Below, in pieces: positions 653 through 57,845 of a stretch of DNA of 64,000 nt. A program made the translations under genes and the position numbers. Each line of letters starts with the position of its first letter. Position 1 is the stretch's first letter. This DNA comes from an uncultured Prevotellaceae bacterium (lineage in GTDB: Bacteria > Bacteroidota > Bacteroidia > Bacteroidales > Muribaculaceae): the NCBI GenBank assembly GCA_946409635.1, contig CAMJXD010000001.1, positions 62,001 through 126,000 of the forward strand, read 5' to 3'. The notes under the pieces were generated by a model, which was given only the letters and a program-made list of their open reading frames with translations, was not told the origin of the DNA and searched no databases.

Positions 653-715
653 CCTTAAAGACCTTAAAGACCCTAAGGTCCTTAAAGTCGTTAAGGTCAT
701 TAAGGACTTTAAAAG
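653..715. repeat. Seven-unit imperfect 9-bp tandem repeat between trpS and the next gene
   Basis: Seven consecutive 9-bp units of the type CCTTAAAGA (653, 662, 671, 680, 689, 698, 707), with variants such as CCCTAAGGT and CATTAAGGA. They begin five bases after the trpS stop and end five bases before the next ATG (721). Because 9 is a multiple of 3 the array is an open frame, encoding a period-3 Leu-Lys/Arg-Ser/Thr string, which artificially lengthens the downstream reading frame. Confidence 0.85.
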
Positions 716-24718: not shown

Positions 24719-26725
24719 ATGAAAGACGAAGAAATCATTGTTCAAGATCAGCAAGACGAGATGTCCCTGCCCGACAATGCGGCAAGGCCTCTTGGACCGG
24801 GGGAAAAGTATGTCCCCATCCTCAAGCCCGACAGGACGTATCCCGAAATTACGCCCTACTCGGTATCGCTCGGCCTGATCATGGCGGTCATCTTCAGTGC
24901 CGCGACAGCCTATCTGGGCCTGAAACTGGGCCAGGTGTTTGAGGCGGCCATCCCCATCGCCATCATTGCAGCCGGCATTGGTGCAGCCACCAAGCGCAAG
25001 AACTCGCTGGGCGAGAATGTCATCATCCAGTCGATTGGTGCCGCTTCGGGCATCATCGTGGCCGGTGCCATCTTCACCCTGCCTGCCCTGTACATCCTGC
25101 AGGCCAAGTACCCCGACATCACAGTGAACTTCCTGGAAATCTTCCTCAGTTCATTGCTGGGTGGCTGCTTGGGTATCCTGTTCTTCATCCCCTTCCGCAA
25201 GTACTTCGTGAGCGACATGCACGGCAAGTTCCCGTTCCCCGAGGCTACCGCTACCACTCAAGTGCTCGTCAGTGGCCAGAAAGGCGGCAGCCAGGTGCGT
25301 CACCTGCTCATCGCCGGTATCGTGGGCGGTCTGTACGACTTCCTGCTCTCGACGTTCCACTGGTGGAAAGAGGTGCTCACCACCGCCGCTATTCCAGCCA
25401 TCCAGGGCTTTACCGACAACGTGAAGATGATATTCAAGGTCAACACCAGTGCCGCTGCCCTGGGTATGGGCTACATTATCGGCCTCCCCTACGCCTTCAT
25501 CATCTTTGCCGGTAGTGCCTTCATCTGGTGGATCATCGTGCCCCTCATGGGCTCCATGCATCCTGAATTGGCAGCTGCTTCACCCGAAAGCATCTTTGCT
25601 GGAATTTCTGGAGACAATGGTTCCATCATCGGTGGCGCCAAGTTCATCGGTATCGGCGGTATCGCCATGAGCGGTATCATCGGCATCATCAAGTCGTGGG
25701 GCGTCATCAAGAGCGCTGCCGGACTGGCTGGCCAGGCCTTCAAGGGTCAAGAGCAGAGCCAGGGTCAGCAGGTGGAGCGCCACCAGCGCGACATCCCGAT
25801 GAAGGTGCTCGTGTTCGCATTATTGGCAGCCCTGCTGGTCACCTTCGTGTTCTTCTATGTCGGCGTCATCCACAACCTGGTTCAGGCCATCGTGGCCTTC
25901 TTCGTTGTGCTGGTCATCGCCTTCCTGTTCACGACTGTTGCCGCTAACGCCATCGCCATCGTGGGAAGTAACCCCGTATCGGGCATGACGCTGATGACCC
26001 TGATCGTTGCCAGTGTAATCTTTGTATCCATTGGCCTGAAAGGTTCTCAGGGTATCGTAGCTGCTATGGTCATCGGTGGTGTTGTGTGCACCGCGCTTTC
26101 GATGGCTGGCGGTATGGTCACCGATATGAAGATCGGTTACTGGATCGGCACCACGCCTGCCAAGCAGCAGACGTGGAAGTTTGTCGGCACCCTCGTGTCG
26201 GCAGCTACCGTCGGTGGTGTTATGATGATCCTTAACGAGGCCTACGGCTTTACCGACCCCAACGTCATGGCAGCGCCCCAGGCCAACGCCATGGCTGCTG
26301 TCATCGACCCCCTGATGATGGGTGGTGACACCCCCTGGTTGCTCTACGGCGTGGGAGCTGTTCTCGCTCTGTTGCTCAACTGGCTCAAGGTGCCCGCATT
26401 GCCCTTCTCGCTGGGTATGTTCATCCCCTTCCAGCTCAATGCTCCGCTGCTCATCGGCGCCATCGTCAGCTGGTTCGTAGGCAGCCGCAGCAAGGATGAG
26501 GCCGTCAATGCCGCTCGCAAGGAGCGCGGTACCCTCATCGCCAGCGGTTTCATTGCCGGTGGTGCCCTGATGGGCGTCGTCTGCGCAGCCCTGGCCTTCT
26601 GTGACATCAAGTTCGATGCTCCCGAAAACGAGCTGCTCACCAACTCACTGGGCGTCATCATGTACCTCGCCCTGATCCTCTTCCTTGCCGTTTACAGCCT
26701 CGGCGCCAAGAAAGACAAGAAGTAA
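24719..26725 (+). CDS. OPT family oligopeptide transporter
   Basis: 668-residue inner-membrane protein with about 15 hydrophobic spans. The N-terminal cytosolic part contains the family block EITPYSVSLGLIMAVIFSAATAYLGLK, and later blocks include FPEATATTQVLVSGQ, GSNPVSGMTLM and a repeated PALPFSLGMF element. OPT carriers import small peptides or metal chelates with protons; the bacterial EspB-like branch is the likely one here. The start at 24719 gives the usual acidic N-tail. Its stop is followed at once by four TTAG heptamers and then by a strong terminator. Confidence 0.92.
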   Translation: MKDEEIIVQDQQDEMSLPDNAARPLGPGEKYVPILKPDRTYPEITPYSVSLGLIMAVIFSAATAYLGLKLGQVFEAAIPIAIIAAGIGAATKRKNSLGENVIIQSIGAASGIIVAGAIFTLPALYILQAKYPDITVNFLEIFLSSLLGGCLGILFFIPFRKYFVSDMHGKFPFPEATATTQVLVSGQKGGSQVRHLLIAGIVGGLYDFLLSTFHWWKEVLTTAAIPAIQGFTDNVKMIFKVNTSAAALGMGYIIGLPYAFIIFAGSAFIWWIIVPLMGSMHPELAAASPESIFAGISGDNGSIIGGAKFIGIGGIAMSGIIGIIKSWGVIKSAAGLAGQAFKGQEQSQGQQVERHQRDIPMKVLVFALLAALLVTFVFFYVGVIHNLVQAIVAFFVVLVIAFLFTTVAANAIAIVGSNPVSGMTLMTLIVASVIFVSIGLKGSQGIVAAMVIGGVVCTALSMAGGMVTDMKIGYWIGTTPAKQQTWKFVGTLVSAATVGGVMMILNEAYGFTDPNVMAAPQANAMAAVIDPLMMGGDTPWLLYGVGAVLALLLNWLKVPALPFSLGMFIPFQLNAPLLIGAIVSWFVGSRSKDEAVNAARKERGTLIASGFIAGGALMGVVCAALAFCDIKFDAPENELLTNSLGVIMYLALILFLAVYSLGAKKDKK

Positions 26726-26753
26726 TTAGCTGTTAGCATTTAGCTGTTAGCTG
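26726..26753. repeat. Four heptamer tandem repeats directly after a stop codon
   Basis: Four 7-bp units begin at 26726, 26733, 26740 and 26747: three TTAGCTG and one TTAGCAT. The first unit touches the TAA stop of the OPT gene. Confidence 0.85.
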
Positions 26754-26766
26754 CAATAAAGAATGT

Positions 26767-26799
26767 AGAGCCGCAAAATCTTGCGGCTCTTGTTTTTTT
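26767..26799 (+). terminator. Rho-independent terminator
   Basis: AGAGCCGCAA (26767-26776) pairs with TTGCGGCTCT (26781-26790), 4-nt loop, followed by TG and seven T residues. Ends the OPT transcript. Confidence 0.93.
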
Positions 26800-26865
26800 C
26801 CCTGAGAAGCAATGGCTAGCCCCAACATTACATTTTGAATAATTATAGCAAATTTGTTGTGTGAT

Positions 26866-50565: not shown

Positions 50566-53500
50566 ATGAGTCTATATTCCAGTTCAGTAAAACGACCGGT
50601 GACCACGACCCTGGTGTTTGTGGCACTGATTGTGCTGGGTCTGTTCTCACTCAAGAACCTGCCCATCGACCTGTTTCCCGACGTGGACACCAACACCATC
50701 ATGGTGATGACCTCCTATGCGGGCACCAGCGCCTCCGATATCGAGCAGAACGTGACTCGCCCGCTCGAGAACACTCTCAACTCGGTCGAACACCTCAAGC
50801 ACATCACCAGTAACAGTCGTGAGAACATCTCGATTGTGACCCTGGAGTTTGAATACGGCTATGACATCGAAGCGTTGACCAACGATGTGCGCGACAAGCT
50901 CGACATGGTGTCGAGCATGCTGCCCGACGATGCCAACACACCCATCATCTTCAAGTTCAGCAGCGACATGATTCCTATCGTGCTGCTGTCGGTTCAGGCT
51001 ACGCAGAGCATGCCCGGCCTGTACAAGATCCTGGACGAGAACGTGTCCAATCCGTTGGCACGAGTTGATGGTGTGGGTTCGGTATCGATCGCCGGCGCCC
51101 CCAAGCGAGAGGTGCACATCTACCTGGACCCCCTGCGCATGGAGGCTTACAACCTGAGTGTCGAGACCGTGGCCGCGCTTGTCGGTGCCGAGAACCGCAA
51201 CATTCCTGGCGGTACGTTTGACATCGGTAACGAGACCTATCCCCTGCGTGTCCAGGGTGAGTTCAGCGATCCCCAGCAGATGGGCGCCATGGTCGTGGGC
51301 ATGTCTCCCACCGGCGGCGTTGTGCACCTGCGCGACGTGGCCCGCATCGACGACTCGCTCGAGGAGCGCGCCCAGGAGAGCTACAACAACGGCCAGAAGG
51401 GTGCGATGATCATCGTTCAGAAGCAGTCAGGTGCCAACTCGGTACAGATTTCCACCAAGATTGCCGAGGAGTTGCCCAAGATTCAGAAGAATCTGCCCAG
51501 CGACATCAAGCTGGACTACATTGTCGACACGAGTGACAACATCCGCAACACCATCGGCTCGCTGGTCGAGACCGTGCTGTTCGCCCTGCTGTTTGTGGGC
51601 ATCGTGGTGTTTGTGTTCCTGGGCCGCTGGCGCGCCACCGTTATCGTGCTGGTGACGATTCCTATCTCGCTGATTGCCTCGTTCATCTACCTGTATGCCA
51701 CGGGCAACTCGCTGAACATCGTGTCGCTGTCGGCCCTGTCGATTGCCATCGGTATGGTGGTCGATGACGCCATTGTGGTGCTGGAGAACGTCACGACCCA
51801 CATCGAGCGCGGTTCGGCGCCCATGCAGGCCGCCGTCAACGGTACCAACGAGGTGGCACTGTCGGTAATGGCGTCGACGCTGACCCTGATTGCCGTGTTC
51901 TTCCCGCTGACGCTTGTCAAGGGTATGACCGGTGTGCTGTTCAAGCAGCTGGGCTGGATGGTGACCATCATGATGGTGTTGTCGCTCATCTGCGCCTTGA
52001 TGTTGACGCCCATGTTGTGCAGCCGCCTGCTGCGCCTGAACGTTACCGACACCACTATCTTCAAGAAGGTGTATGGCCCCATCCTGAAGGTGCTTGACAA
52101 GATTGACGACTTCTATGCCAAGGTGCTTGACATCTGCGTGGCCCACCGCTGGATTACAACGGCGACGGCCCTGGGCATCTTTGTGGCCTCGATGTTACTG
52201 ATGAAGTTCATCGGCACCGAGTTCTTCCCCACCAACGATAACAGCCGCCTGGGCGTGTCGCTGGAGCTGCCCATCGGCTCACGCGTTGACCTGGCCAAAG
52301 ACGTCAGTCAGCGCCTGTACAAGGAGTGGACCCAGAAGTATCCCGAGATCAAGGTGTTCAACTATACCGTGGGCCAAGCCAGCAGCGACAACACGTTCGC
52401 ATCGATGCAGAACAACGGCTCGCACATCATCTCGATGAACATCACCCTGGTCGATGCCGACAAGCGCAAGCGCGGCATCACCGAGATTGCCGGCCTGATG
52501 CGTGAAGACCTCAAGCAGTATCCCGAGCTCAAGAAAGCGCTGGTCAACGTCGGTGGCTCGCGTGGAGGCGGCATGAGCGGCCAGAGCACGCTCAACTATG
52601 AGATCTATGGTTACGACTTCACCAAGACCGACAGCGTGGCCCAGCGCCTGAAGCGCATTCTCGAGAGCGTTCCCGGTGCAGCCGACATCAACATCAGCCG
52701 CAGCGACTACCAGCCTGAGTACCACGTTGACTTTGACCGCGAGAAGCTGGCGCTGTATGGCCTGAACCTGAGCACCGCCGCCACAGCGCTGCGCAACCGC
52801 ATCAACGGCACGACGGCGAGCTACTTCCGCGAGGACGGTATGGAGTATGACATCAAGGTGATGTATGACCCCGAGCACCGCCGCAGCATCAGCGACATCG
52901 AGAACATCATGCTCTATAACTCGATGGGACAGGGCGTTCGCCTCAAGGAGGTGGGCAACGTTGTTGAGCGCTTCTATCCGCCCACCATCGAGCGCAAGGA
53001 CCGCGAGCGCATCATCACCGTGTCGACCGTCGTCCAGGGACGCCCCATGAGTGATGTGATTGCCGATGCCCAGCCCCTGATCGACAAGATGGACAAGCCG
53101 GCCGAGGTGAGCATCGACCTGAGCGGTAGCTACGAGGACCAGCAGGACTCGTTCGGCGACCTGGGTATCCTGGCTATCCTCATCATCATGCTCGTGTACA
53201 TGGTTATGGCAGGCCAGTTTGAGTCGTTCACCTACCCCGCTATCATCATGACGTCGATCTTGTTTGCCTTCTCGGGTATCGTGATCATCCTGTTGCTCAC
53301 GGGAACCAACCTGAACGTGATGTCGATGATCGGTGCCATCATGTTGATTGGTATTGTGGTGAAAAACGGTATTGTGCTCATTGACTACATCAACCTGAAC
53401 CGTGAGCGTGGCATGAGCATTCGACGGGCCGTGATCAACGGCGGCCACTCGCGTCTGCGCCCCGTGCTGATGACTTCGCTCACGACCATCCTGGGTATGG

Positions 53501-53697
53501 TTCCCATGGCCATTGGTACCGGTGTGGGTAGCGAGATGTGGCGCCCGATGGGCACCGCCGTCATCGGCGGCTTGACGATGTCCACGTTGATGACCCTGCT
53601 GTTCGTGCCCACGATGTACACCATCTTTGCACTGACAGGCATTCGTCGCACCCGCAAGAAAATGAGCAAGGAACACTTGCAATCAATCAAGAATTAG
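50566..53697 (+). CDS. RND efflux permease, HAE1-like (AcrB type)
   Basis: 1043 residues, the normal size for an AcrB-type proton-driven pump with 12 transmembrane helices and two large periplasmic loops. The proton-relay pair is present in helix 4 as GMVVDDAIVVLEN. Other family blocks are NLPIDLFPDVDTNTI, GTEFFPTNDNSRLGVS and, near the end, GIVVKNGIVLIDYINLNR. It probably exports drugs, bile acids or other toxic amphiphiles; HAE1 rather than the metal-exporting HME type is suggested by the double Asp and lack of metal-site Met clusters that I can see. Confidence 0.93.
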   Translation: MSLYSSSVKRPVTTTLVFVALIVLGLFSLKNLPIDLFPDVDTNTIMVMTSYAGTSASDIEQNVTRPLENTLNSVEHLKHITSNSRENISIVTLEFEYGYDIEALTNDVRDKLDMVSSMLPDDANTPIIFKFSSDMIPIVLLSVQATQSMPGLYKILDENVSNPLARVDGVGSVSIAGAPKREVHIYLDPLRMEAYNLSVETVAALVGAENRNIPGGTFDIGNETYPLRVQGEFSDPQQMGAMVVGMSPTGGVVHLRDVARIDDSLEERAQESYNNGQKGAMIIVQKQSGANSVQISTKIAEELPKIQKNLPSDIKLDYIVDTSDNIRNTIGSLVETVLFALLFVGIVVFVFLGRWRATVIVLVTIPISLIASFIYLYATGNSLNIVSLSALSIAIGMVVDDAIVVLENVTTHIERGSAPMQAAVNGTNEVALSVMASTLTLIAVFFPLTLVKGMTGVLFKQLGWMVTIMMVLSLICALMLTPMLCSRLLRLNVTDTTIFKKVYGPILKVLDKIDDFYAKVLDICVAHRWITTATALGIFVASMLLMKFIGTEFFPTNDNSRLGVSLELPIGSRVDLAKDVSQRLYKEWTQKYPEIKVFNYTVGQASSDNTFASMQNNGSHIISMNITLVDADKRKRGITEIAGLMREDLKQYPELKKALVNVGGSRGGGMSGQSTLNYEIYGYDFTKTDSVAQRLKRILESVPGAADINISRSDYQPEYHVDFDREKLALYGLNLSTAATALRNRINGTTASYFREDGMEYDIKVMYDPEHRRSISDIENIMLYNSMGQGVRLKEVGNVVERFYPPTIERKDRERIITVSTVVQGRPMSDVIADAQPLIDKMDKPAEVSIDLSGSYEDQQDSFGDLGILAILIIMLVYMVMAGQFESFTYPAIIMTSILFAFSGIVIILLLTGTNLNVMSMIGAIMLIGIVVKNGIVLIDYINLNRERGMSIRRAVINGGHSRLRPVLMTSLTTILGMVPMAIGTGVGSEMWRPMGTAVIGGLTMSTLMTLLFVPTMYTIFALTGIRRTRKKMSKEHLQSIKN

Positions 53698-53703
53698 GCC
53701 TAC

Positions 53704-53752
53704 CCTAAAAACTAAGGACTAAGGACTAAAAACCAAGGACCAAAAACCAAAA
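53704..53752. repeat. Seven heptamer tandem repeats between the RND gene and the PII-like gene
   Basis: Seven 7-bp units start at 53704, 53711, 53718, 53725, 53732, 53739 and 53746: types ACTAAGG, ACTAAAA, ACCAAGG and ACCAAAA. On the minus strand the units read TTAGTCC or TTGGTTT. The array starts six bases after the RND stop and ends four bases before the next ATG. Confidence 0.88.
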
Positions 53753-53756
53753 CAAT

Positions 53757-54050
53757 ATGAAAGCGATATTTATAGCCTTTGACGAGGCCTACTATGACCG
53801 CATTGTCGAGAGGTTGAACCTGCTCAACTGCCGTGGCTTCACCGGCTGGCGCGAGGTGCAGGGCCGTGGCAGCAAGACGGGCGAGCCCCACTATGCCACC
53901 CACGCCTGGCCCTCGATTGCCTCGGCCATCCTGACCGTTGTCGACGACAGCCGTGTGGACGTTGTCCTCGACGAGCTGCACCAGATGGACATGGCGACCC
54001 CCAAGCTGGGACTGCGCGCCTTTGTGCTCCCGGTAGAGCGCACCATCTAG
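53757..54050 (+). CDS. PII-like protein linked to an RND pump
   Basis: 97 residues, the PII/CutA size class. The beta-alpha-beta opening MKAIFIAFDEAYYDRIVERLNLL, then GFTGWREVQGRGSKTGEPHYAT, which lies where PII proteins carry the T-loop, and the second half AILTVVDDSRVDVVLDELHQMD fit a PII-like ferredoxin fold. PII-like genes next to RND pumps are known (the PII-NG group is linked to heavy-metal RND pumps). The residues for ATP binding in classical PII are not evident, so the ligand is open. It closes the operon, after a 59-base gap with heptamer repeats. Confidence 0.72.
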   Translation: MKAIFIAFDEAYYDRIVERLNLLNCRGFTGWREVQGRGSKTGEPHYATHAWPSIASAILTVVDDSRVDVVLDELHQMDMATPKLGLRAFVLPVERTI

Positions 54051-56378: not shown

Positions 56379-56494
56379 TCACGCTAAGTCGCGAAGTTTA
56401 TAGGTTTTGCTCGCAAGAAGCTCGCAATAGTAATTAGAAGTGAGCTTCTTGCGAGCGATTATTTTTTGCTTTGCGGCTTAGCGACTTAGCGTGA
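56379..56494. repeat. Nested inverted repeat (116 bp) with internal octamer repeats
   Basis: Outer arms TCACGCTAAGTCGC (56379-56392) and GCGACTTAGCGTGA (56481-56494) are 14-bp perfect complements. Inside, GCTCGCAAGAAGCTC (56409-56423) and GAGCTTCTTGCGAGC (56442-56456) are 15-bp perfect complements around an 18-nt loop. The right side also reads as octamers CTTTGCGG, CTTAGCGA, CTTAGCGT in tandem (56470-56492). Confidence 0.9.
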
Positions 56495-56532
56495 GTTTTG
56501 GTGCGATTGACCTGTTGATATTGGGGAAAAAT

Positions 56533-56623: not shown

Positions 56624-57817
56624 ATGCCTAAGATTTCAGAACGCAGCGTCAAGATGCCGGCATCGCCCATCAGGAAGCTGGCTCCGTTTGCAGCCGACGC
56701 CAAGAAACGCGGTATCAAAGTGTATCACCTCAACATCGGTCAGCCCGACCTGCCCACCCCCGAGGAAGGCTTGGAGGCCCTGAAGCATGTTGACCGCAAG
56801 GTGCTCGAGTACAGCCCCTCACAGGGTTATCCCCAGTATCTGGAGAAGCTCGTGGGCTACTACAAGCGCTATGACATCAACCTGGACGTGGACGACATCA
56901 TCGTGACCTGCGGCGGCAGCGAGGCCGTGCAGATGGCCTTCATGGTGTGCCTCAACCCCGGTGACGAGATCATCATCCCCGAGCCCGCCTATGCCAACTA
57001 CATGGGCTTTGCCTGCGAGACCGGTGCCGTGGTACGCACCATCACCACCCACATCGAGGACGGCTTTGCCCTGCCCCCCGTCGAGGAGTTTGAGAAGGTG
57101 ATCAACGAGCGCACCCGCGCCATCATGATCTGCAACCCCAACAACCCCACCGGCACCCTCTACAGCCGCGAGGAGCTCATGCGCCTGCGCGACCTGGTGA
57201 AGAAATATGACCTGTTCCTGTTTGCCGACGAGGTTTACCGCGAGTTTATCTACAGCGATGCGCCCTACACCAGCGCCATGCACCTCGAGGGCATCGAGGA
57301 TAACGTGATCATGATCGACAGCGTCAGCAAGCGCTACAGCGAGTGCGGCATCCGCATCGGTGCCTTCATCACCCGCAACCGTGAAGTGCGCACTGCTGCC
57401 ATGAAGCTCGCTCAGGCCCGCCTGAGTCCTCCCCTGCTGGGCCAGATCGTTGCCGAGGCTTCGCTCGACGCACCCCAGTCCTACCACAAGGCCGTGTATG
57501 ATGAGTACATTGCCCGCCGCAACTGCCTGGTCGAGGGTCTGAACAAGATTCCCGGAGTCTATAGCCCGATGCCCATGGGCGCCTTCTACACCGTGGCCAA
57601 GCTGCCGGTCGAGGACATCGACGACTTCTGCCGCTGGTGCCTGGAGGAGTTCAACTACGAGGGCGAGACCGTGATGATGGCTCCTGCCAGCGGTTTCTAT
57701 GCCACCCCCGGCCTGGGCAAGAACGAGGTACGAATGGCCTACGTGCTCAAGATCGACGACCTGAAGCGTGCCCTGGTAGTGCTCGAGAAAGCCCTCGAGG
57801 CCTACAATAAGAAATGA
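56624..57817 (+). CDS. PLP-dependent class I aminotransferase (aspartate aminotransferase-like)
   Basis: 397 residues, normal length. The PLP lysine is in DSVSKRYSECGIRIGAF (SKxxxxxGxRxG motif). Other fold-type I marks are LNIGQPDLPTP, the substrate/cofactor block CNPNNPTGTLYS, FADEVYREFIY and the C-terminal VRMAYVL with the substrate-binding Arg. Family members transfer the amino group of aspartate, aromatic or branched amino acids to 2-oxoglutarate; the donor cannot be told by eye. Own promoter; followed by heptamer repeats and a terminator. Confidence 0.92.
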   Translation: MPKISERSVKMPASPIRKLAPFAADAKKRGIKVYHLNIGQPDLPTPEEGLEALKHVDRKVLEYSPSQGYPQYLEKLVGYYKRYDINLDVDDIIVTCGGSEAVQMAFMVCLNPGDEIIIPEPAYANYMGFACETGAVVRTITTHIEDGFALPPVEEFEKVINERTRAIMICNPNNPTGTLYSREELMRLRDLVKKYDLFLFADEVYREFIYSDAPYTSAMHLEGIEDNVIMIDSVSKRYSECGIRIGAFITRNREVRTAAMKLAQARLSPPLLGQIVAEASLDAPQSYHKAVYDEYIARRNCLVEGLNKIPGVYSPMPMGAFYTVAKLPVEDIDDFCRWCLEEFNYEGETVMMAPASGFYATPGLGKNEVRMAYVLKIDDLKRALVVLEKALEAYNKK

Positions 57818-57845
57818 GAGACGTTAGACTTTAGACGATAGAGAC
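57818..57845. repeat. Heptamer tandem repeats directly after a stop codon
   Basis: Four degenerate 7-bp units begin at 57818, directly after the TGA: GAGACGT, TAGACTT, TAGACGA and TAGAGAC. In another register the core is TTAGACT/TTAGACG. Confidence 0.7.

Follow-up and report, generated by a model that had tools for sequence, protein, structure and literature searches.

The gap that separates an AcrB-family transporter gene from a P-II family gene is occupied for the most part by a tandem array of heptamers, and this raises the question as to whether such an array belongs to a class of intergenic element whose members have similar cores, vary in period and favor certain positions relative to genes, as the initial annotation of this DNA had proposed. 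The window, i.e., the whole stretch of 64,000 nucleotides analyzed here, corresponds to G000:C1:62001-126000, where G000, the window's own genome, is a 2.57-Mb draft of 134 contigs with a completeness of 83.6%. The locus in question comprises the following features:

50566..53697, + strand: transporter gene of the AcrB/AcrD/AcrF family (1043 aa), preceding the flagged array and ending in the stop codon TAG at 53695-53697
53705..53752, - strand: flagged heptamer array, of the pre-start class, occupying most of the AcrB-family/P-II gap
53757..54050, + strand: gene of the P-II family (97 aa), following the flagged array

The units of the flagged array are TTAGTCC and TTAGTTT on the minus strand, which read ACTAAGG and ACTAAAA on the coding strand; the letters of 53705-53752 begin with CTAAAAA CTAAGGA CTAAGGA CTAAAAA CCAAGGA CCAAAAA. 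The array lies 7 nt past the TAG of the transporter gene, yet 4 nt ahead of the ATG at 53757, and it folds no better than chance (z -0.17). The statement that the arrays of the window lie 0-6 bases after stop codons thus applies to those at 26726 and 57818, while the one at 53704 has to be reassigned as a pre-start array of the P-II gene.

Other Arrays and Dyads of the Window

653..713, + strand: period-9 array with CTTAAG/CTTAAAG cores, filling the gap 3' of a tRNA-synt_1b ORF (fold z -5.2)
26726..26753, + strand: post-stop array of TTAGCTG/TTAGCAT, flush with the TAA (26723-26725) of an OPT transporter gene (24719-26725)
56381..56496, no strand assigned: nested dyad in which octamer arms (CGCTAAG/CTTAGCG) enclose an inner GCTCGCAAGAAGCTCGC-type dyad
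57819..57842, + strand: weak post-stop array of AGACGTT/AGACTTT, ahead of a terminator-like hairpin

The array at 26726-26753 reads TTAGCTG-TTAGCAT-TTAGCTG-TTAGCTG, and shares a unit of the TTAGCTN kind with the array at G000:C2:190282, which runs into a GGCATCCGC centre (see below). It is followed, at window positions 26765-26800, by a variant of the terminator-like hairpin GTAGAGACGCAAAATCTTGCGTCTC, itself near-identical in the G006 gaps 18108, 48780, 49661, 50795 and 85884. The array at 57819-57842 (AGACGTT-AGACTTT-AGACGAT-AGA) begins 1 nt past the TGA (57815-57817) of an aminotransferase gene (56624-57817); with 3.4 copies, a TRF score of 34 and 9.5 against the genome-wide cut of 10.5, it is weak and remains uncounted, and at a cut of 7 a comparable segment occurs in 15 of 1100 shuffled 140-mers. 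On the 3' side of this gene in the window and 22 relatives, period-7 segments are found in the window (TTAGACN), in L152 (TTAGTGA) and in L159 (GTAATGG, 24 nt from the stop). The nearest matches of the aminotransferase, at 93-98% identity, are MAGs deposited as Porphyromonadaceae, Prevotellaceae, Muribaculaceae or Bacteroidales, several of them with a rumen or forestomach origin in their titles, and its identity with Candidatus Sodaliphilus fimicaballi is 85%. The source is thus probably a Muribaculaceae bacterium close to Sodaliphilus. The array at 653-713, previously described as a 9-bp TTAA array after trpS, does follow a tRNA-synt_1b (W/Y) ORF, compatible with trpS, and the CTTAGCG octamers reported from a palindrome at 56.4 kb were located in the dyad at about 56381-56496, whose fold z is -9.3 (56380-56500). 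Octamer dyads of this CGCTAAG/CTTAGCG type, with period-8 arms, form a separate intergenic family in congeners, with further sites at G024:78393, G006:82435, G009:102383 and G018b:28171.

Sampled Genomes and Abundance of the Arrays

The main set consists of the gaps within 1.59 Mb of DNA from the own genome (398 kb) and five congeners (G009, 255 kb; G021, 199 kb; G024, 140 kb; G006, 200 kb; G018, 400 kb), scanned for self-matches at periods 6 to 11; as these congeners were chosen for being rich in the pattern, their array densities are not typical of the genus. Genes were called with a longest-ORF script, whose starts are approximate, and the scan was limited to gaps of at least 20 nt. Array counts were compared with dinucleotide shuffles, with a main cut of 10.5 at period 7. 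Arrays from related genomes, or sharing one gap, are not independent, and all p-values are nominal. A hold-out of 400 kb from G110, G098, G103 and G102, for which the tests were fixed before analysis, was drawn from congeners with TTAGNNN x4 matches, and its densities are likewise not typical.

A genome-wide search had been put forward as the means of revealing an excess of such arrays, and the excess is large: the main-set gaps of the own genome and the five congeners contain 125 period-7 arrays versus 0.4 in shuffled sequence, 93 of them at a stricter cut, while only 10 lie inside the called genes of the same DNA. Period 9 follows with 28 arrays versus 1.2; periods 8 (8 versus 0.8), 10 (6 versus 0.6) and 11 (6 versus 0.4) also exceed their shuffles, and period 6 yields no array versus 1.4 in the main-set gaps. 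Arrays of periods 7 to 11 being in excess, with gene edges as the preferred site of those of period 7 (see below), the proposal of a class whose members have related cores but differ in period is borne out. The hold-out gives 24 period-7 arrays versus 0.4 expected (G110 4, G098 6, G103 13, G102 1).

The own genome is a poor one for the pattern: its 398 kb contain 6 period-7 gap arrays versus about 0.1 from dinucleotide shuffles, and in all 2.57 Mb TTAGNNN x4 occurs at 10 places and the reversed pattern at none. Across the genus, TTAGNNN x4 is present in 81 of 101 genomes, the own one included, with 0 to 469 matches each, in counts where one long array scores several times. The reversed control remains below it in most genomes and above it in 8 of the 101. 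These eight genomes, richer in the reversed GATTNNN type, are G104 (113 versus 1), G004, G011, G106 and four more, hinting that arrays in GATTNNN-rich genomes such as G104 are perhaps built on a different core.

Position and Strand at Gene Edges

Period-7 arrays are concentrated at gene edges. Within 6 nt of an edge lie 73 of the 125, versus 35.8 under random placement, and 73 was reached in none of 20,000 simulations; in roomy gaps, 27 of 71 arrays are found at a gene edge versus 7.6 expected. Placement after stop codons is not the rule that had been suspected, as the nearest edge within 6 nt is a stop for 36 arrays and a start for 37. In the hold-out, a gene edge is 6 nt away or less for 13 arrays versus 6.1 expected, and for 8 of 18 in roomy gaps versus 1.6.

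The strand on which TTAG is read depends on the edge. Within 15 nt of stops, TTAG points outward from the gene in 27 arrays, inward in 9 and neither way in 6 (p 0.004), and within 15 nt of starts outward in 34, inward in 5 and neither way in 11 (p 2e-6). Since TTAG mostly points outward at stops and starts alike, the strand rule is symmetrical, with TTAG after a stop and CTAA before a start. The earlier description of TTAGNNN units as read on one strand conceals this rule, the strand being mostly set by the gene edge that the array touches. Of the 75 arrays near edges in which TTAG or CTAA is in the majority, 14 read inward, and the inward arrays at stops include ones that span a short gap to the next start (G006:7699, G021:40999). 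The hold-out orientation within 15 nt is outward in 10 arrays, inward in 3 and neither in 3 (outward 10 of 13, p 0.09).

Units, Core and Stop Codons

Units could be aligned in 76 arrays (360 units), the remaining 49 having no TTAG consensus or fewer than three units in register. Deviation from the array consensus amounts to 64 of 1440 at core positions and 232 of 1080 at NNN positions; position by position, it is 0.039 (T), 0.075 (T), 0.036 (A), 0.028 (G), 0.081 (N), 0.239 (N) and 0.325 (N). This constancy of the core is not built in, because the arrays were detected by their period alone. In the hold-out (12 arrays, 53 units), the values are 0.019 at each of the four core positions, then 0.094, 0.226 and 0.208. 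Arrays of period 9 can follow the same design: in 16 of 36, a CTAG-, CTATAG/TATA- or CTTAA-type core is repeated and the spacer varies; an AATTCG/GAATTA family accounts for 8 of 36, and the remainder are various. The longest period-9 arrays, at G021:193910 and G021:19190, have CTAG cores. A dispersed gap repeat, AACTACGAATTAC(A/G)CGAATT, was seen in five genomes (e.g., G006:19144 and G018a:77113), partly as period-9 arrays.

Stop codons are frequent within the units, with a sense-strand stop in 120 of 125 consensus units and stops on both strands in 111, versus 31 for letter-shuffled units and 22 for random gap heptamers; the same holds for 21 of 24 hold-out arrays. As a period of 7 places a stop in every frame, the arrays might act as six-frame translation stops insulating neighboring genes, a role that these both-strand counts fit but that is very improbable indeed, for the TTAG core by itself yields the enrichment, a period of 9 is unable to serve all frames, and 5 of 125 units carry no sense stop, the post-stop arrays of TTCAGTC and AGTTTTC among them. 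All-frame stop insulation was accordingly rejected.

The array may also relate to the stop codon of the gene that it follows. Of 10 genes that end in TAG, 7 have this stop in register with the array, where one in seven would be expected (p 1e-4), so that some arms take in the stop codon itself, and TAG is over-used as the stop at arrays (10 of 27 versus 201 of 1163, p 0.013); the single TAG case of the hold-out is also in register. For TAA (14 cases) and TGA (3 cases), there is no clear register. Seeding of arrays by stop codons in general was rejected on this basis, the register being clear for TAG only.

Facing Arms and Centre

Some gaps contain two arrays, and 28 such two-arm gaps were gathered from the main set, from the hold-out and, with a lenient cut, from orthologous gaps. 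The arms face each other as (TTAG, CTAA) in 22 of them and are unassigned or parallel in 6; the opposite arrangement was found in none. Between the arms, or on the inner side of a single arm, a centre can be recognized, namely, a match to GGCATCCGC (one mismatch tolerated) or to GGCGATAGTAAT (two tolerated), on either strand and within 30 nt of the array. Of the 117 oriented arrays, 52 have a centre on their inner side, in 42 of 107 array gaps, and not one has it on the outer side; random gap 30-mers contain it in 95 of 4000 cases, and the 8 unoriented arrays have no centre. Once the arrays are masked, the 9-mer GCGGATGCC/GGCATCCGC ranks second in enrichment within gaps (36 gaps versus 0.56 expected), after a promoter-like word. 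Because the centre motifs were first seen in the main set and then tested there, the hold-out alone provides an independent test, in which the centre is on the inner side of 3 and the outer side of none of 20 arrays (random, 37 of 4000).

Both a partner arm and a centre accompany 22 of the 125 arrays, a centre only 30, a partner only 6 and neither 67; of these last, 45 are no more than 10 nt from a gene, versus 29.4 expected. At G009:245083, a start-flush arm is more than 250 nt from the other arm, with a promoter-like word between them. Sixteen genomes of this genus were sampled for TTAG and GGCATCCGC within 12 nt of each other, and 6 contain the combination (G070 59 matches, G103 28, G110 20, own genome 4, G019 3, G067 1). 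Outside the genus, a search of 182 genomes for TTAG...GGCATCCGC with the centre in one orientation returned 0 to 3 matches per genome, with any in 39 of 182, and 0 to 6 for the reversed pattern.

MITEs and intergenic palindromic repeats are characterized by inverted arms that flank a centre; this arrangement is found here, yet 67 of 125 arrays show neither partner nor centre. One explanation would be a mobile REP/MITE-like element that carries the arms and is inserted into gaps. The centre is indeed repeated together with adjoining bases across loci of one genome, as is the case for TTAGGCGATAGTAATCTT in two G009 gaps, as such an element would predict; the explanation is nevertheless quite improbable, since the arm units differ from locus to locus, no Y1_Tnp (RAYT) genes were found in the draft of G000, 83.6% complete, and 30 Y1_Tnp loci of congeners have a period-7 array at 3 and a centre at 3. 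RAYT/REP as the driver of the arrays was set aside as unsupported on these counts (0 Y1_Tnp matches in G000; 3 of 30 congener loci with an array).

Pairing and Folding

In two-arm gaps, the arms form stronger duplexes than controls do, with a mean arm-arm duplex energy of -17.2 versus -11.4 when right arms are shuffled and -5.6 when arms are reversed; the native arms surpass the shuffled ones in 22 of 28 gaps (Wilcoxon 2.8e-5). An arm does no better with its own partner than with swapped arms, the observed value being reached in 626 of 2000 permutations (15 pairs) and 760 of 5000 (28 pairs); this partner swap is a weak control because the array families share their core. Precise, partner-specific matching of arms was accordingly not seen, and neither was the mirrored unit order between arms that inverted duplication would leave. 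In the inner 80 nt of the 74 one-array gaps, opposite cores (82) outnumber same-direction cores (33), and 7-spaced pairs of opposite cores occur in 12 of these gaps versus 2 for same-direction pairs. By position in the unit, the fraction paired reaches its maximum of 0.73 at the A and G of the core and its minimum of 0.43 at the last position.

For folding, 26 elements were used: 15 came from the main set, and the other 11 were orthologous gaps selected because two arms are visible in them. The folding z is below -5 in 8 of the 26 (G009:120164, G009:246729, G006:103575, G018b:103229, L233, L235, L261 and L265) and above -3 in 14.

Turnover between Species

For the AcrB-family/P-II gap, 94 genomes gave a match, and 70 of them were read, the own genome included; 6 were dropped for want of a recognizable downstream start, leaving 64. 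A period-7 array is present in 21 of these at the lenient cut and absent from 43; the median gap length is 87 nt with an array versus 32 nt without. The units differ from genome to genome (ACTAAGG, AGTTTTC with ACTGAAA, TTAATAG, ATAACAG, GATAAGA, CGATAAA), and in L260 and L263 the gap contains TCTAGA-type period-9 arrays. No clean junction or target duplication was established in the array-free orthologous gaps.

A fixed period with a constant core and a variable spacer would also suit a protein-binding array, in which an RNA- or DNA-binding protein would recognize every unit as a site of 5 constant bases plus a 2-base spacer; TRAP and CsrA recognize multi-site targets in this manner, and the palindromic cores in 16 of 36 period-9 arrays are compatible with such sites. 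Binding of this kind is improbable, as the sense sequence is unlike at the two gene edges and one RNA-binding protein would not read both, and the 43 array-free AcrB-family/P-II gaps speak against a conserved target there.

Turnover is also apparent between close relatives. In the pair G052/G053 (median gene identity 95.5%), 4 of 40 syntenic gaps contain an array in either genome; 3 of them differ in unit number, and the fourth gap has a substitution in the shared part and is cut by a gene call. Such differences are what short-lived, slippage-grown arrays would produce, and they support replication slippage, one of the possibilities named in the initial annotation. A second comparison, G073 versus G074, offered 4 syntenic gaps, none with an array, and the stretches compared between G070 and G105 shared no orthologues.

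Slippage could by itself account for arrays as microsatellites without a role, expanding wherever gaps tolerate heptamers: A-rich leaders would seed ACTAAAA arrays, stop codons and the bases that follow would seed TTAG arrays, and orientation would mirror the composition of leaders and trailers. The unit-number changes in G052/G053 fit this explanation, as do the register and over-use of TAG at arrays and the ACTAAAA-like leaders present unexpanded in some array-free orthologous gaps (e.g., L257 and L241). It leaves unexplained the centre found on the inner side only, the recurrence of related units over many loci and species, and the avoidance of the core by variation, and TAA and TGA stops lack the clear register; microsatellites without a role are thus unlikely, although far from negligible as an explanation.

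Relation to Known Repeats

Several known families share part of this anatomy. The cyanobacterial STRR heptanucleotide repeats are heptamer tandem arrays that are not known to have opposing arms or a centre. REP elements with RAYT transposases, like the arrays, provide many short intergenic dyads per genome, the difference being that Y1_Tnp loci are not clearly associated with arrays here. ERIC, RU-2, Correia and RUP elements have a fixed consensus, unlike the arms described here, which are length-variable tandem arrays with a unit differing by locus and no transposase link found. These elements are, like the present arrays, short, dispersed and often intergenic, and RNA secondary structure is among their motifs (Delihas 2007, PMC2229807). 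Rfam 15 covariance models gave no match at the gathering score in the window and six loci.

The nearest published relatives are the TAACTGA intergenic heptamer direct repeats, which have no known function and a sporadic distribution that includes five Bacteroidetes (MacGregor 2015, PMC4679880). They resemble the arrays here as 7-bp tandem units in gaps, near starts and with stop codons in the unit, and differ in consisting of a single fixed heptamer, where the present arrays combine a constant core with a variable spacer and have opposing arms, a centre and a position at both gene edges. In BOGUAY, the majority of TAACTGA repeats lie several nt upstream of starts (PMC4679880); here, starts and stops are nearly even, with 37 and 36 of the 125 arrays, respectively, at a distance of 6 nt or less. 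The exact TAACTGA tandem yields no doublet in 1.99 Mb, and AACTGAN x3 yields 21 matches. The initial annotation knew of no named element with these properties, which holds only in part, intergenic heptamers such as TAACTGA having been published (PMC4679880). A search of the open PMC literature, beyond which most subscription journals lie, gave the TAACTGA repeats as the nearest case and, among the papers listed, no description of this element. Of the known kinds, the arrays thus stand closest to intergenic heptamers of the TAACTGA sort and to the palindromic repeats of bacteria.

Conclusions

Edge-anchored heptamer arms are a real class in many species of one genus, and each test in the hold-out, a small set of 24 arrays, went in the same direction. 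Their anatomy, combining a period of 7, a position at gene edges, an outward orientation and an inner centre, is well supported. At about an even chance, the arrays are the slippage-grown inverted arms of lineage-specific intergenic hairpin (dyad) repeats, a mechanism that is moderately supported. A full element would then run from edge to edge as a TTAG-type heptamer arm, a centre (GGCATCCGC/GCGGATGCC or GGCGATAGTAAT) and a CTAA-type arm, and many gaps hold one arm only. The arms would lengthen and shorten through replication slippage, while opposing UUAG and CUAA cores may pair as short helices in the transcript or in single-stranded DNA, with the variable bases forming internal loops; the outcome would be an imperfect intercistronic hairpin in which pairing holds the core constant. 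Several results weigh against this mechanism: the 67 of 125 arrays with neither partner nor centre, arms that pair no better with their own partner than with others, unit order that is not mirrored, the flagged array and 14 of 26 elements with little folding signal, the widely separated arms at G009:245083, the inward-reading arrays, and the outward orientation in the hold-out when taken alone. A broader formulation can be advanced only tentatively, and is on balance doubtful, namely, a distinct intergenic class of slippage-grown arms of period 7, 8 or 9, pointing outward from both gene edges, with a self- or arm-complementary TAG/TAA core and a free spacer, re-arising with new units and ordered by core pairing, not by fixed sequence.

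The least certain point is the benefit to the cell, which would most plausibly lie in acting on intercistronic mRNA in general and not in controlling particular genes, given that most of the species read have no such array in the orthologous gap. Bacterial gene gaps are usually viewed as products of promoters, terminators and deletion; in many species of one genus, they also contain oriented, edge-anchored tandem repeats in which the core is kept, the spacer varies and the arrays turn over between species. If the core-pairing rule is true, structure, and not fixed sequence, would be what is conserved in these intergenic repeats.
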